A stretch of DNA of 64,000 bases, taken from NCBI GenBank assembly GCA_018648685.1, contig JABGQT010000182.1, forward strand, positions 1 through 64,000, given 5' to 3'. Source of the DNA: Anaerolineae bacterium. GTDB taxonomy: Bacteria > Chloroflexota > Anaerolineae > Anaerolineales > Villigracilaceae. Positions 24,358 to 35,646 of the stretch are shown here, piece by piece (the first letter of the stretch is position 1; each line of letters opens with the position of its first letter). The notes beneath the pieces were generated by a model. It worked only from the letters and a program-made list of their open reading frames with translations. It made no database searches and was not told where the DNA came from. The translations under genes were made by a program, and so were the position numbers.

Positions 24358-24465
24358 GAAAGCGAAAGTTATTGAATCCCAAGTTATTTAATGCTACGAT
24401 GGTTTTAGAATTATTCAAAAAGAATGAAATGTTTTTTTCATTTAAGAAGAATAGGAGGATGCAAA

Positions 24466-25422
24466 ATGGAAAAGCCAACTAAAAAATTCAATGGTAATTT
24501 AGATATAGAGGGAAATGATATTATTCTAAAAACCGACAAAGGTAATATCACTTTAATTTCCTATCCACCCCAAACTGCGATTTCACTTGAAGCGATGAAA
24601 CTTGATGCTGTAAATGCATTCTCTGAGTATATTGGAAACCCTGTAACTATCTCTGGCATGAAGCAAGATGATCAAATATACGATGCGAAAATTATACGTA
24701 GTTACAAGAGTCATGAACCAGAGAAATATGGGAAAGAGTATTGGAACAATAGAATCCAAAAAGCACATATCCGATTTAAAGCTAGAAGATTGCCCGGATA
24801 CAATAAACAATTTGAAGTTGATGTTCGTCAAATGATAACCATAAATGACTCAATTATTTATGAGGATCTAAAAAAGCATTCCCTTTTAGTAAGAGATCTA
24901 GAAATATGTGACGAGGACATTTACAGAATTTATCATCATTCTCGTGTGAAGAGAATAAACCCTTATCGCTACGAATATGACGAAAAAATTTTTGGTTGCG
25001 AATTCTTTATGTATCCATACGAACTGCGCACACTACATAAAGGTGATTGTGATGACTGGGGAATAGAATTAGCATCTTATCTAATTACTGCAGGAATTCC
25101 AGAATGGCGAATTCGCTGCGTAGTTGGGAACACTTTTGGCGGGGGGGGACATCTTACAGTATATGTATTAGATGACCAACTATCTAACTGGTATCATTTA
25201 AACTCTACAACTGCATGGCCTTCGGTAATTAAAAAAGGATATGGAAAATTATCAGATTTTCCAAAAGCTAATGATTCGAATGACAAAATTGGCATCAAAG
25301 ATGTTTGGTTTAGCTTCAACAACCTCTATGCTTGGCACGCTTTTGAAACTCATACTTCAGAAGAGAATATGCACAGAGTGCCATGGATGAATAGTTTCTT
25401 GATCAGACCTATTTTAGGATAG
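24466..25422 (+). CDS. Transglutaminase-like cysteine peptidase with an OB-like N-terminal domain
   Basis: A 318-residue AT-rich gene, unlike its neighbours. Residues about 8-80 look like a small OB-type beta domain (NLDIEGNDIILKTDKG, YIGNPVTISGMKQDD). The C-terminal half has the transglutaminase-like triad: Cys195 in KGDCDDWG, His229 in GGGGHLTVYVLDD, and a third polar residue near 246 in WYHLNST. This family hydrolyses or cross-links amide bonds. No signal peptide is visible, so it acts in the cytoplasm. The start is fixed by AGGAGG at 24453-24458, 7 nt before the ATG; an upstream ATG at 24424 has no such site. The function is unknown. Base composition suggests horizontal acquisition. Confidence 0.75.
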   Translation: MEKPTKKFNGNLDIEGNDIILKTDKGNITLISYPPQTAISLEAMKLDAVNAFSEYIGNPVTISGMKQDDQIYDAKIIRSYKSHEPEKYGKEYWNNRIQKAHIRFKARRLPGYNKQFEVDVRQMITINDSIIYEDLKKHSLLVRDLEICDEDIYRIYHHSRVKRINPYRYEYDEKIFGCEFFMYPYELRTLHKGDCDDWGIELASYLITAGIPEWRIRCVVGNTFGGGGHLTVYVLDDQLSNWYHLNSTTAWPSVIKKGYGKLSDFPKANDSNDKIGIKDVWFSFNNLYAWHAFETHTSEENMHRVPWMNSFLIRPILG

Positions 25423-29784: not shown

Positions 29785-30072
29785 ATTAACACAAAACTCC
29801 CGTCCACAATGGGACGGGAGGGAATTCCCGCGGTACCACCCACGTTGATCTATCGCACATAACTTGCACAACAAATCCACTCTGTGCCGACTATCATCGG
29901 CTGCCCTGATAACCTTAGGCTTAGGGTCTGAACTACCAATGTGATGCAATCACATTCACACATTCACCCAGACAACTCAGGAGGGAACTTCAATCCGCTT
30001 TCGTCGAGCAGACGTTTCAGCCAATGCACCTGCCTCTCTAACGACTTCCTGCGGACTTACTTTCCTCCGTCA
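29785..30072 (-). promoter_or_regulatory. T-box leader (Phe) of pheST
   Basis: Read on the minus strand: Stem I begins near 30072 (GACGGAGGAAAGTAAG, with the AGTA loop-E element) and returns near 29980 (GCGGATTGAAG, then TTC at 29985-29987, then CCTCC). TTC is a Phe codon in the specifier position. The conserved T-box GGGTGGTACCGCGGG is at 29827-29841. The terminator is CTCCCGTCC/GGACGGGAG (29797-29820) followed by TTTTG. When uncharged tRNAPhe binds, the antiterminator forms and pheST is made. Confidence 0.95.
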
Positions 30073-30086
30073 TCGCGTTGGGGTCT

Positions 30087-30114: not shown

Positions 30115-30164
30115 GGGTGGGGTGATTATGTTCTTGAATAAACTTCTCTAGTTTTCTGATTTTT

Positions 30165-32522
30165 TCAAGACCTTTCAAACAAATCATCAATATCTTGTTC
30201 AAAAAAATCTTCCTTCCACGCAGTTTCATCTAAGCTATTTATAGCATCATTAGAAACGATTGTTTCATACACCCATTCATTGATATCTATGCTGTCTATT
30301 ATTTCATCAATATCAATATCTATTCCATTTTGAACTCCCTCTAAATCATATGATGAGATGTATTGCGAGGGGGCTTCTCCTTCTTCCTTATCAGGAGCTT
30401 CGTAAACAGTCCGACTGACCGATTCTATACTTGAGTAACCCTCTAGCATATATTCCATACTAGCTCCAATTGCCTCTTTTGCACCCTCTTCATTAAATTT
30501 ATAATTATCTTCATCATCTATTTCATCAAAATGGTTTGATTCTGAATATGATATAAAATCTTCAATATCAATTTTTTTGTAGATCTCATCAATCAAGAAA
30601 CTTGTTATTTCGCTTTGGAATCTTTCACAAATATCATCATTATTAATTTCAAAAAATGCTATAAACTCATCAAAAATTTCTAGTTCAGTTTCGTCAAAAC
30701 TTCTGTCATCACCTATACAATCTGATATGAAACCGAAGTCTTCTATCCCTAACTCTTTGTGAAAACCTATTATTAAAGTTAATAACTTTGAAATCTCGTT
30801 GACTATTAGAGGCTTGGCCGAGATGTTTTTCAGGAATGGAATAATCGTCTGTTTTTTTCTTTGTTCGTGTCTAACTATATAAGCTACAAACACCAAATAA
30901 TCAATGGTTTTTTTTTGTTGAAAAGCGTCATCAAAAAGTTTGTTTTTAAATTCTGCTACTTCCTTAACAGGGATAATTTTTTCTCGTTCTAACGATAATA
31001 ATTGCTCCAAAGATTTAATAGTATTTAAGGATTTAAAAATATTTAGAAGATCATCTGTATTATTCCCATACTCTTCCAAAATATAATCAGCTATCGAGGG
31101 ATTAAATAGAGTATAAGTTATTTTATCTGATTGCTTACTTCGATTAAGAAACGATTTTGTAGCTAATTCCGATATAGAATTGAAATCTTTTTCTGCATGA
31201 GAAGGGTTGGTCAAATTTTCTAATCCGTTAATTTTCTTAAAACCTAATCGTAATTCCTTTTCCGAAATAGCCTTGCCATTAAGCACTGTCAGCTTTACTA
31301 AATTTCTCACATAAGCATTATTTTGTCTCTTGAAATAATCATCCCAAATATCTTTTGGATTATTTAAGTTTCCAAGAATATAGTTCCAGTAATCACTACT
31401 TAAAACATCAAATCTTTCGATATCTGTAATAAATTCTATTATTCTAGGATTAAAATTTTGGTGCTTGATTACCTTTTTATAGCGTTTGTTTTTATAGTAT
31501 TCATCAATATAGTTCTCAGGCAAGTTACTAAACCAAATATGGTTATACAATATTTTCGCGCGATCAAATAATGAAAAACTCTTTATAGACAATAGAAAAT
31601 CATTTTTTTGGATATTATAATTTTTCAGTACACTACTATACAAAATCCCTGCATTTAAGATATTTGTCCTCGAGGTCAGGATAAAGAGTTTTGTCTCATC
31701 TTTTCTTACTCTGTCTATAAACTTGGTGATGTGGGAATCTTTTTTATTTTCTATTGCCTCAAAGTAATTACTGCCAAGAAAATCATCAAAATAAAAAATC
31801 TGTTTTCTGCCTCTAGCATAAACATTCTCCGCTTCACTTAGAGATTCTTCAATATCAAAAAACTCATAGCCTTTTGCTACAAAAAATAAGCACATACTTT
31901 CAGCTAGGGTGGTTTTTCCAATTCCAGGTTCTCCTGAAATAATAAGGACATGATTTTCTTGTAAAATTTTGATAGCCTTGGAGTGTGCTTCCGTTTGAGC
32001 GTATCGAGATGATTTTTCTTGAAACCGCTCTAATTCAAATTCGCTTCTCCCTTTTATTGCATTGTTGATAATTCGATTAAAAACTGTAGTGCTTGAAATC
32101 CAAAGCTTGAAATATTTTTCTTCTATTTCAGGGTACTTACAGAGAAAATCATTTATATCTTCTTGACCAAAAACATCATTTTCTTCTTTTATGTAGGGGA
32201 AGAATATGTTCTTAATTTCCTTTTTATAATCTCGAGATAATGGTAAAGAAGTAACAAAAACATACTTTGCAGGGTTTAGTTTTTTTACTTTTTGTACTTC
32301 TTCTCTTTTTAGAGTAGATATTAAGCCTTGATATCCAGTTTTTAAATAATGCTTACATTGAATAATAGTTTCATTGTTTTCACTAGAAAAATATCGTCCA
32401 TCAACGCCACCATCTTTTCCTGATTTAAATCTTTCTATTCGAGCATCATAAACCTTAGAAAGTAAGTCAGCGGCAAGCCTTTCAAACTCTTTATCATTTA
32501 GTTGGGAAAAATCATAGTTCAT
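30165..32522 (-). CDS. Mrr-type nuclease fused to a STAND-like P-loop NTPase, probable antiphage protein
   Basis: A 785-residue protein in strongly AT-rich DNA. Residues 1-125 form a PD-(D/E)xK nuclease domain of the Mrr/restriction type: KDGGVDGRYF (Asp41) and TIIQCKHY (Gln55, Lys57). A P-loop domain follows with Walker A GEPGIGKTT (197-205), Walker B QIFYFDDFLG (Asp246-247) and an Arg sensor TSRTNIL. A winged-helix and a long helical, acidic C-terminal region follow (rich in Asp/Glu from about 600), with no clear repeats. This order resembles nSTAND3-type and Avs-like defence proteins, where an NTPase senses a phage product and triggers DNA degradation. No partner gene is adjacent. The start has no good ribosome site. 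Confidence 0.82.
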   Translation of the reverse strand: MNYDFSQLNDKEFERLAADLLSKVYDARIERFKSGKDGGVDGRYFSSENNETIIQCKHYLKTGYQGLISTLKREEVQKVKKLNPAKYVFVTSLPLSRDYKKEIKNIFFPYIKEENDVFGQEDINDFLCKYPEIEEKYFKLWISSTTVFNRIINNAIKGRSEFELERFQEKSSRYAQTEAHSKAIKILQENHVLIISGEPGIGKTTLAESMCLFFVAKGYEFFDIEESLSEAENVYARGRKQIFYFDDFLGSNYFEAIENKKDSHITKFIDRVRKDETKLFILTSRTNILNAGILYSSVLKNYNIQKNDFLLSIKSFSLFDRAKILYNHIWFSNLPENYIDEYYKNKRYKKVIKHQNFNPRIIEFITDIERFDVLSSDYWNYILGNLNNPKDIWDDYFKRQNNAYVRNLVKLTVLNGKAISEKELRLGFKKINGLENLTNPSHAEKDFNSISELATKSFLNRSKQSDKITYTLFNPSIADYILEEYGNNTDDLLNIFKSLNTIKSLEQLLSLEREKIIPVKEVAEFKNKLFDDAFQQKKTIDYLVFVAYIVRHEQRKKQTIIPFLKNISAKPLIVNEISKLLTLIIGFHKELGIEDFGFISDCIGDDRSFDETELEIFDEFIAFFEINNDDICERFQSEITSFLIDEIYKKIDIEDFISYSESNHFDEIDDEDNYKFNEEGAKEAIGASMEYMLEGYSSIESVSRTVYEAPDKEEGEAPSQYISSYDLEGVQNGIDIDIDEIIDSIDINEWVYETIVSNDAINSLDETAWKEDFFEQDIDDLFERS

Positions 32523-32558
32523 AATATGAGTATCTCATCCTAATAACTCAACAATTAC

Positions 32559-32580
32559 AAAAAGCCCCCTAAAAGGTGGC
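32559..32580 (-). terminator. Terminator of the nitroreductase gene
   Basis: On the minus strand GCCACCT and AGGGGGC form a 7-bp stem (one mismatch) with a short loop, followed by five T residues. It is 23 bp after the stop codon. Confidence 0.65.
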
Positions 32581-32602
32581 ACATATTCATTATATCTTTA
32601 TT

Positions 32603-33373
32603 TCACCCTTCCACCCACGCCTTCACCATCTCCCGTACTGAGCGACTCATCTCTACCGAAAAATCGGATGCGAATTTTCGGTTGTAAAAATATTGCCCAT
32701 AATTTGTAATACCACGCATCGCTTTGCCTTGCGGGAGTTGCTTCTCACGCTCGGCGAACATCTCAGTAAAATCATCTTCGCTCAGGCGTTGATACTGATT
32801 TTCAAAGACGATAAACCTTTTATCAAAACGATCCGTCATCTTTCGGTCTTTTTGTTGCTGTGTGGGATAACCAAAAACCAGCATCGCGATAGGAAAAACG
32901 TACGGGGGCAAATTGAACAACTCTTTATGGATTTCGTAATTTTCCATAATATCGCCAATATAGCAGGAGCCAAGCCCAAGGGAATCCGCAGCAATGACAG
33001 CATTCTGCGCGGCGATCAAGGTATCAGAACAAGCCAAGAAGAGATCGCCTTCTTCAGGTTTTCGCATTGGTTCGTCAGAGAACGTATCCGCGCCAGAAAG
33101 AAGAAAATAATCGTACCAACGTTGGTAATCCGCAAGGAAAATCCAGACCATCGGCGCACGGGCAATAAAGGGCTGGTCATCGCAGGTTTTGACCAATTTC
33201 TCCTTGATGCTTTGATCGGTAATATCCAAAATTGAGTAGAGCATCATATTTCCCGCTGTTGGGGCACGCAGAGTCGCTTCAAGGATTTTGGCCTTTACAT
33301 CGGCTTCAATATCACGTTTTTCAAAGGCACGCACAGATTTTCGGTTGAGTAAAATGTCCAGAGTTGGGTTCAT
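32603..33373 (-). CDS. Nitroreductase-family flavoprotein
   Basis: A 256-residue FMN-dependent oxidoreductase of the NfsA/FRase-like group. The N-terminal pattern LNRKSVRAFEKRDI is the FMN phosphate-binding segment. LRAPTAGNMMLYSILDI is the second FMN site, and GLGSCYIGDIMEN is the third. Members reduce nitro compounds, quinones or flavins with NAD(P)H. The natural substrate is not deducible. AAGGAGAG lies 6-7 nt before the ATG. The gene stands alone between the nuclease-NTPase gene and the divergent ProRS-like gene. Confidence 0.9.
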   Translation of the reverse strand: MNPTLDILLNRKSVRAFEKRDIEADVKAKILEATLRAPTAGNMMLYSILDITDQSIKEKLVKTCDDQPFIARAPMVWIFLADYQRWYDYFLLSGADTFSDEPMRKPEEGDLFLACSDTLIAAQNAVIAADSLGLGSCYIGDIMENYEIHKELFNLPPYVFPIAMLVFGYPTQQQKDRKMTDRFDKRFIVFENQYQRLSEDDFTEMFAEREKQLPQGKAMRGITNYGQYFYNRKFASDFSVEMSRSVREMVKAWVEG

Positions 33374-35253: not shown

Positions 35254-35646
35254 ATGTTATTGCACAAAGAAATCACGTCAGAAATCATCAATGCTTTTTA
35301 CAAGGTCTACAACACTCTTGGGTATGGCTTTCTTGAAAAAGTCTATGAAAATGGGCTTGCGCTTGAATTAGAAAAGCGAGGAATAAAAGTCGAAAAGCAA
35401 GTCCCTATTCAAGTTTATTATGAGAACAAAATCGTTGGAAAGTATTTCGCTGACTTGCTTGTCACTGATGCTGTTGTTGTCGAACTTAAGGCTGCTGAAC
35501 AACTTATTGCCGCACATGAAACACAGTTGATCAATTACCTCAAAGCCACTGAAATAGAAGTAGGTCTTTTACTCAATTTTGGCAAAGAAGCCAAATACAA
35601 ACGCAGAGTTCTCTCACAGCGAAACAGAAAATTAAAAAGCCTTTAA
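35254..35646 (+). CDS. GxxExxY family protein (PDDEXK-like)
   Basis: A 130-residue small protein. The name motif appears as GYGFLEKVYENGL (G, E and Y in order), and the conserved core continues IKVEKQVPIQVYYENKIVG, YFADLLVTDAVVVELKAAE and LINYLKATEIEVGLLLNFG. The D and E-x-K (VVVELKA) spacing resembles a PD-(D/E)xK nuclease fold, to which the family has been assigned by others. No activity is proven. GGAG lies about 7 nt before the ATG. It is bounded by 11-bp inverted repeats and short-period spacers, a setting that suggests a mobile or multicopy unit. Confidence 0.88.
   Translation: MLLHKEITSEIINAFYKVYNTLGYGFLEKVYENGLALELEKRGIKVEKQVPIQVYYENKIVGKYFADLLVTDAVVVELKAAEQLIAAHETQLINYLKATEIEVGLLLNFGKEAKYKRRVLSQRNRKLKSL

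Follow-up and report, generated by a model that had tools for sequence, protein, structure and literature searches.

A horizontally acquired Mrr-nSTAND3 gene of the candidate defence family PDC-S73: a putative compact Avs-like receptor with a conserved tip on a variable acidic tail

Why does a solitary, AT-rich gene for a predicted nuclease fused to a STAND NTPase lie between housekeeping genes of an Anaerolineae bacterium, and what might its protein do? We have addressed this question for a gene within a 64,000-nucleotide stretch of contig JABGQT010000182.1 (positions 1 to 64,000, hereafter the window). The gene is an open reading frame of 785 amino acids with an ATG start at 30165..32522 on the minus strand (ORF listing of the window), and its GC of 0.304 and GC3 of 0.243 stand against 0.512 and 0.511 for pheS, a GC3 of 0.564 for pheT and values of 0.455 and 0.486 for the nitroreductase gene. 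Its flanks are this nitroreductase gene and the T-box leader of pheST (29807..30082, minus strand; Rfam RF00230, 96.7 bits), which is intact beside the insertion, and a partner gene is absent. An initial annotation of the locus had proposed a candidate single-gene antiphage system, and the AT-richness and the single-gene layout that it described both hold. In our reading, which we hold with a probability of roughly 0.7, the gene was acquired horizontally and encodes, as a single gene, a compact STAND immune receptor that is Avs-like and belongs to the PDC-S73 family; that the gene acts against phages is what we infer for it.

The gene is horizontally acquired mobile cargo. None of the 59 relatives searched has it (8 from the source genus, a further 27 from its family and a further 24 from its order), while the source assembly, which is 88.5% complete, holds a single copy. 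A Pfam nSTAND3 search of 150 genomes of the family, its own included, gave a match in the window's own genome only, at the position in the protein where the domain search had placed it. The phylum Chloroflexota (400 genomes, own included) contributed one further clear member, from genome G417 and 30% identical, two distant relatives and a match that covered the Mrr part alone. The sister genome G008 lacks the gene: there the nitroreductase gene adjoins the pheST T-box leader, and blastn of the flanks places the inserted interval at 30119..32612, where G008 has 13 bp. The gene is thus not vertically conserved, and the recent acquisition suspected in the initial annotation is borne out. The same gap contains two other ORFs of 211 and 148 amino acids in the sister genome G007 (L004:2264-3335) and one 206-amino-acid ORF in G005 (L008:2495-3115), another sister genome. 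Since these genomes hold other genes there, the spot between nitroreductase and pheST is variable and takes up cargo repeatedly. A promoter-like TTGACA/GATAAT site at 30114-30087, next to the T-box leader, is conserved in G008. A tree built from 32 members pairs the window protein with an Ignavibacteria protein (support 100/98) and places the other Chloroflexota member, that of G417, elsewhere. This nearest relative, L002, is 55% identical in the best segment and lies in a different setting; its gene is likewise AT-rich, with a GC of 0.242 compared to 0.367 for its own contig. Around the Ignavibacteria member relatives were found in 11 of 395 genomes, two of the 11 being distant.

The family itself is already known. 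It is catalogued in PADLOC as the candidate single-gene defence system PDC-S73 (PDLC05079), and residues 1-784 of the window protein align to positions 1-751 of the 752 in this model with an E-value of 7.1e-242. Chance is excluded by such a full-length match, and the window protein is a member of the candidate family. All 22 members scanned (alignment A2) match the PDC-S73 model as well. The model also fires, at its loose default threshold, in 7 of 14 control genomes, and members were therefore counted by protein query (E 1e-6) or by a full ORF. PDCs in general are described as putative candidate systems from a guilt-by-embedding approach, mostly without experimental validation (PMC12988326). 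The open-licence literature searched contained no paper naming the family, no reported activity for it and nothing on nSTAND3 combined with Mrr, and PHROGs held no matching family for the protein.

The protein begins with a predicted Mrr_cat nuclease domain (residues 7-98; 32229..32504, minus strand, as all features of the gene given below), identified by Pfam with an E-value of 1.4e-7 and a score of 32 bits against a curated cut-off of 21. Within it the core D41-x13-Q55-x-K57 (32352..32402) is retained, each of the three residues being present in 26 of 26 aligned homologues; the catalytic residues of this predicted nuclease are invariant in the alignment, and loss of these residues in homologues was not seen. 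The NTPase that follows is an nSTAND3 domain (PF20720; residues 174-331, 31530..32003) with an E-value of 7.5e-48 and 162.6 bits against a curated cut-off of 27.2. The initial annotation had recognised its motifs correctly. The P-loop reads GEPGIGKTT, with Walker A at residues 197-204 (31911..31934; G197, G202 and K203 in 26/26), Walker B is FYFDD (residues 243-247, 31782..31796; D246 and D247 in 25/26 each), and the sensor TSR lies at residues 283-285 (31668..31676; R285 in 26/26). An NPSxxD motif (residues 474-479, 31086..31103) closes the winged-helix part, with P475 in 26, S476 in 23 and D479 in 25 of the 26 sequences. This alignment takes in the distant relatives L070, L071 and L084, which have about 19% identity. 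Dropped before counting were L072 (Mrr part only, the ORF being cut by the end of the locus), L083 (truncated, 349 amino acids), L094 (gene split in two) and L097 (protein identical to that of L089). A similar nuclease part occurs in other company, too. Residues 1-199 match positions 1-196 of the Argonaute-associated REase model PDLC02400 (E 4.5e-42), and 21 of the 22 members scanned match both this model and PDLC02416. In contrast to those systems, no short Argonaute gene is adjacent and the remainder of the window protein is nSTAND3. With nuclease and linker resembling those of the Argonaute-associated proteins, the Mrr effector is a module that recurs in at least two defence settings.

Sequence searches against proteins of solved structure gave weak or generic P-loop matches: phmmer returned only three (E 0.54-0.97), and nearly all of the profile matches listed were generic P-loop. 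A comparison of folds was therefore needed. AlphaFold2 (AF2) models, built with 11 sequences, reached a mean pLDDT of 68.5 and a pTM of 0.41 for the window protein, and 74.5 and 0.50 for the homologue L102. For both models the best Foldseek match in the PDB was Avs4 with the phage portal (E 9.4e-13 for the window protein, 7.0e-9 for L102); Avs5 filaments ranked second and NLR-type proteins followed, and for L102 the matches also included SAMD9 and Avs3. The TM-scores to the Avs structures are low (0.12-0.26), and this counts against an Avs-like reading; we attribute the low values to differently placed domains and to the moderate quality of the models. In VIA-align the top match of the window model was Avs4 (Z 13.6, rmsd 23.4, 429 aligned). 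For the L102 model Avs4 was not among the best 50 matches listed, most of which were generic AAA+ ATPases. That Avs4 leads for one of the two models only likewise counts against the Avs-like reading, although its absence from the second list excludes nothing.

Taken together, Pfam, AF2 and Foldseek outline a tripartite order of effector, STAND NTPase and helical C-terminal candidate sensor, as the initial annotation had anticipated in calling the domain order of Mrr and nSTAND3 Avs-like. The closest comparison is Avs4 (AVAST type 4; 8dgf, with the portal of phage PhiV-1), whose nuclease is of the Mrr type and which has in common with the window protein a nuclease effector, a STAND NTPase and a helical C-terminus. 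However, the window protein, with 785 residues compared to 1534 listed for Avs4, has about half its length, and the acidic, tip-bearing tail of the window protein may be a second difference. Avs5 (filaments 9nc9 and 9jap) is of similar length, but carries a SIR2 effector instead of the Mrr nuclease. It joins SIR2 to nSTAND3 of the same Pfam NTPase family (PF20720; PMC12931631). None of the named Avs models (AVAST types 1-5) was among the five PADLOC matches at E-values up to 1, and for this reason we read the models as showing an Avs-like architecture, half as long as that of Avs4, and do not place the protein within Avs.

An Mrr nuclease fused to an NTPase might also work as a type IV restriction-like enzyme. 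The nuclease would then cut modified or foreign DNA directly, gated or powered by the NTPase as in McrBC, and no phage protein would be sensed. Mrr is a modification-dependent restriction family, many homologues are annotated as restriction endonuclease, and McrB is among the weak P-loop matches to solved chains (E 2.4e-4). However, the McrB matches span only 46 residues of the P-loop, the NTPase belongs with an E-value of 7.5e-48 to a switch-type family also found in Avs5, the fold matches are Avs and NLR-type proteins, and Pfam found no separate DNA-recognition domain. We consider the restriction-like mode of action unlikely and retain the Avs-like receptor.

The region beyond the winged helix had been described initially as a long acidic helical C-terminus that was not recognised. 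It is acidic and helical, but it is not a single unit: it consists of a variable helical module (about residues 480-650) and an apparently disordered acidic tail with a tip. The order of parts is thus Mrr nuclease, nSTAND3, winged helix, variable helical module, acidic tail and conserved tip. Among 32 members conservation drops beyond about residue 482, and what emerges is a variable middle between conserved ends. The module, delimited at residues 475-650 (30573..31100) and proposed here as the sensor, is modelled as an array of helices, mostly with a pLDDT of 70-92, and Pfam found no repeat family in the C-terminus. The tail (residues 651-777, 30192..30572) has a pLDDT below 50, and the last 120 residues of the protein have a net charge of -31. 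This stretch is net negative in all 35 proteins measured (-3 to -31). From residue 601 to 774 no position exceeds 2 bits across the 32 members.

At the very end conservation returns. The tip IDDLFERS (residues 778-785, 30168..30191) is anchored by F782, fourth from the end, with 4.14 bits, and I778 and L781 reach 2.51 and 2.74 bits in the 32 members. The pattern [ILV]xx[LIM]F occurs within the last 16 residues of 21 of the 23 discovery members and of all nine viral-contig members fetched afterwards. In these proteins 3.6-3.9% of stretches of 16 residues, taken from anywhere in the chain, carry it, and shuffled tails contained it on average in 0.39 of 23 and 0.09 of 9 cases, at most in 3. The two misses among the 23 are L076, with the pattern farther from the end, and L096, with Met in place of Phe. 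Since L078, L079 and L090 are closely related, the 21 tip-bearing discovery members are not independent. The distant L070, L071 and L084, which were kept apart, have the strict pattern in none of the three cases; they end in an acidic tail followed by [IM]F and, two residues on, by an acidic or hydrophobic pair. Other nSTAND3-matching proteins served as controls. Of seven loci fetched, six yielded an ORF; the match of the seventh, L132, was listed with an internal stop, and no ORF came from it. The tip pattern was found in 0/6 of these controls and their charge ranged from -3 to +9; only five of the six are fair controls, because L137 is a helicase by Pfam. A tail shared with neighbouring genes was not found, as the six neighbours examined end differently. 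The conserved hydrophobic tip ending a variable acidic tail is a new observation made here. We have tried two known peptides as templates. The sliding-clamp motif is QLxLF, and it was rejected because I, L or V, not Gln, stands four before the Phe. The tip of SSB ends at Phe, and it was rejected because in nearly all members residues follow the Phe.

The tip is helical in both AF2 models, with a confidence of about 35 in the window protein and of 77 in L102, where the stretch preceding it stays at 32-44. This pattern suggests docking in one homologue only, L102. We read the tip as a possible autoinhibitory latch or a docking tip. In the mechanism that we propose, the variable helical module (about 480-650) would recognise a phage product, ATP binding would drive oligomerisation, and the N-terminal Mrr nucleases thereby brought together would cut DNA. 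Cleavage would stop the infection and probably kill the cell, as reported for Avs1-4: once these recognise a phage protein such as terminase or portal, their nuclease effectors cut the DNA of both phage and host (PMC12931631). We are less confident of a further step, in which the acidic tail and its Phe-anchored tip may fold back on the resting protein, either shielding the nuclease by mimicking DNA or locking the switch like a clamp, and be released on activation; this latch step draws on conservation, on charge and on the confidence of one model. The titles and abstracts of the open-licence literature searched for acidic-tail autoinhibition in phage defence contained nothing on the PDC-S73 family. 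Extended to the whole family, the idea is speculative: PDC-S73 proteins could be self-locked miniature Avs receptors, in which a DNA-like acidic tail of about 130 residues, anchored by Phe and pinned by its helix, holds nuclease or switch off until a trigger prises the tip loose. Alternatively, the tip could be a bait or dock and the protein a guard-type receptor.

Rather than a self-latch, the tip could be a peptide by which the protein docks to a conserved component of the cell, so that it guards this component or is recruited by it. The tip is kept across several phyla, plasmids and viral contigs when the preceding linker is not, and IxxLFxx(L) is an amphipathic-helix pattern at a place where both models are helical. 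Yet no partner of the tip is known, its sequence is without the Gln of the sliding-clamp motif and continues past the Phe at which that of SSB ends, and a contact within the protein accounts equally well for its conservation. We regard external docking as conceivable, though doubtful. If the self-latch is true, a tail holds a bacterial NLR-like nuclease inactive, and its tip is conserved where the sensor is not. The family is not new, and what merits follow-up is the acidic tail together with its conserved tip. The tip offers a specific and cheap hypothesis of what keeps small STAND nucleases inactive before infection, and the same question arises for NLR-type receptors at large. For a catalogued candidate family whose proteins resemble a half-size Avs receptor, this solitary gene makes a clean test case, and the small size of the protein makes expression and structure work simple.

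Homologues are carried by mobile elements: 52 plasmid records, of which 31 are predicted conjugative, and 2 phage records contain relatives. Viral contigs scanned with the single protein yielded no homologue; with alignment queries, nine usable viral-contig loci carry one (L101 and L109 are the same contigs as L100 and L099, respectively). These homologues sit in cargo positions. On the P2-type phage contig L099 the gene lies between Phage_portal and Phage_GPA, which in P2 is the site of old and tin, a known hotspot of defence genes. On L108 a phage lysozyme gene is followed by the homologue, an AAA_15 (OLD-like) gene and a type I methylase/specificity gene; an AAA_15 gene precedes the homologue on L102, a UmuC-like gene (IMS) adjoins it on L104, a gene of similar sequence on L103, and an integrase gene is near it on L100. 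Several homologues are solitary and outside defence islands, and this counts against an immune receptor. The many plasmid records, conjugative ones among them, and the prophage-like contigs would fit a defence gene whose targets are plasmids or other mobile elements, or a cargo gene of the addiction type that favours its own element, instead of an anti-phage function. However, anti-phage genes commonly travel on mobile elements as well, and no antitoxin-like partner stands beside the window gene; such a role seems rather improbable to us, and anti-phage defence remains our preferred reading.

A few further observations concern these loci. Beside the P2-type copy, at L099:9163-10000, two small ORFs resemble, as far as their sequence can be read, a RelE/ParE-type toxin and a helix-turn-helix antitoxin. 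In a Prosthecochloris plasmid (L090:550-3482) about 500 bp separate the homologue from upstream genes annotated as avd, reverse transcriptase and formylglycine-generating-enzyme family, the set of a diversity-generating retroelement. In a Priestia plasmid (L094:3998-6335) the gene is annotated as two ORFs, a restriction endonuclease of 228 amino acids and an AAA ATPase, which is either a frameshift or a genuine split form. The window itself has another AT-rich stretch across 24-26 kb (GC 0.367), in which ORFs of 332 and 139 amino acids lie beside pheT (24424-25422, plus strand). Finally, a 130-amino-acid PDDEXK_3 protein, presumably of the GxxExxY type, is encoded at 35254-35646 on the plus strand (Pfam E 5.5e-43).
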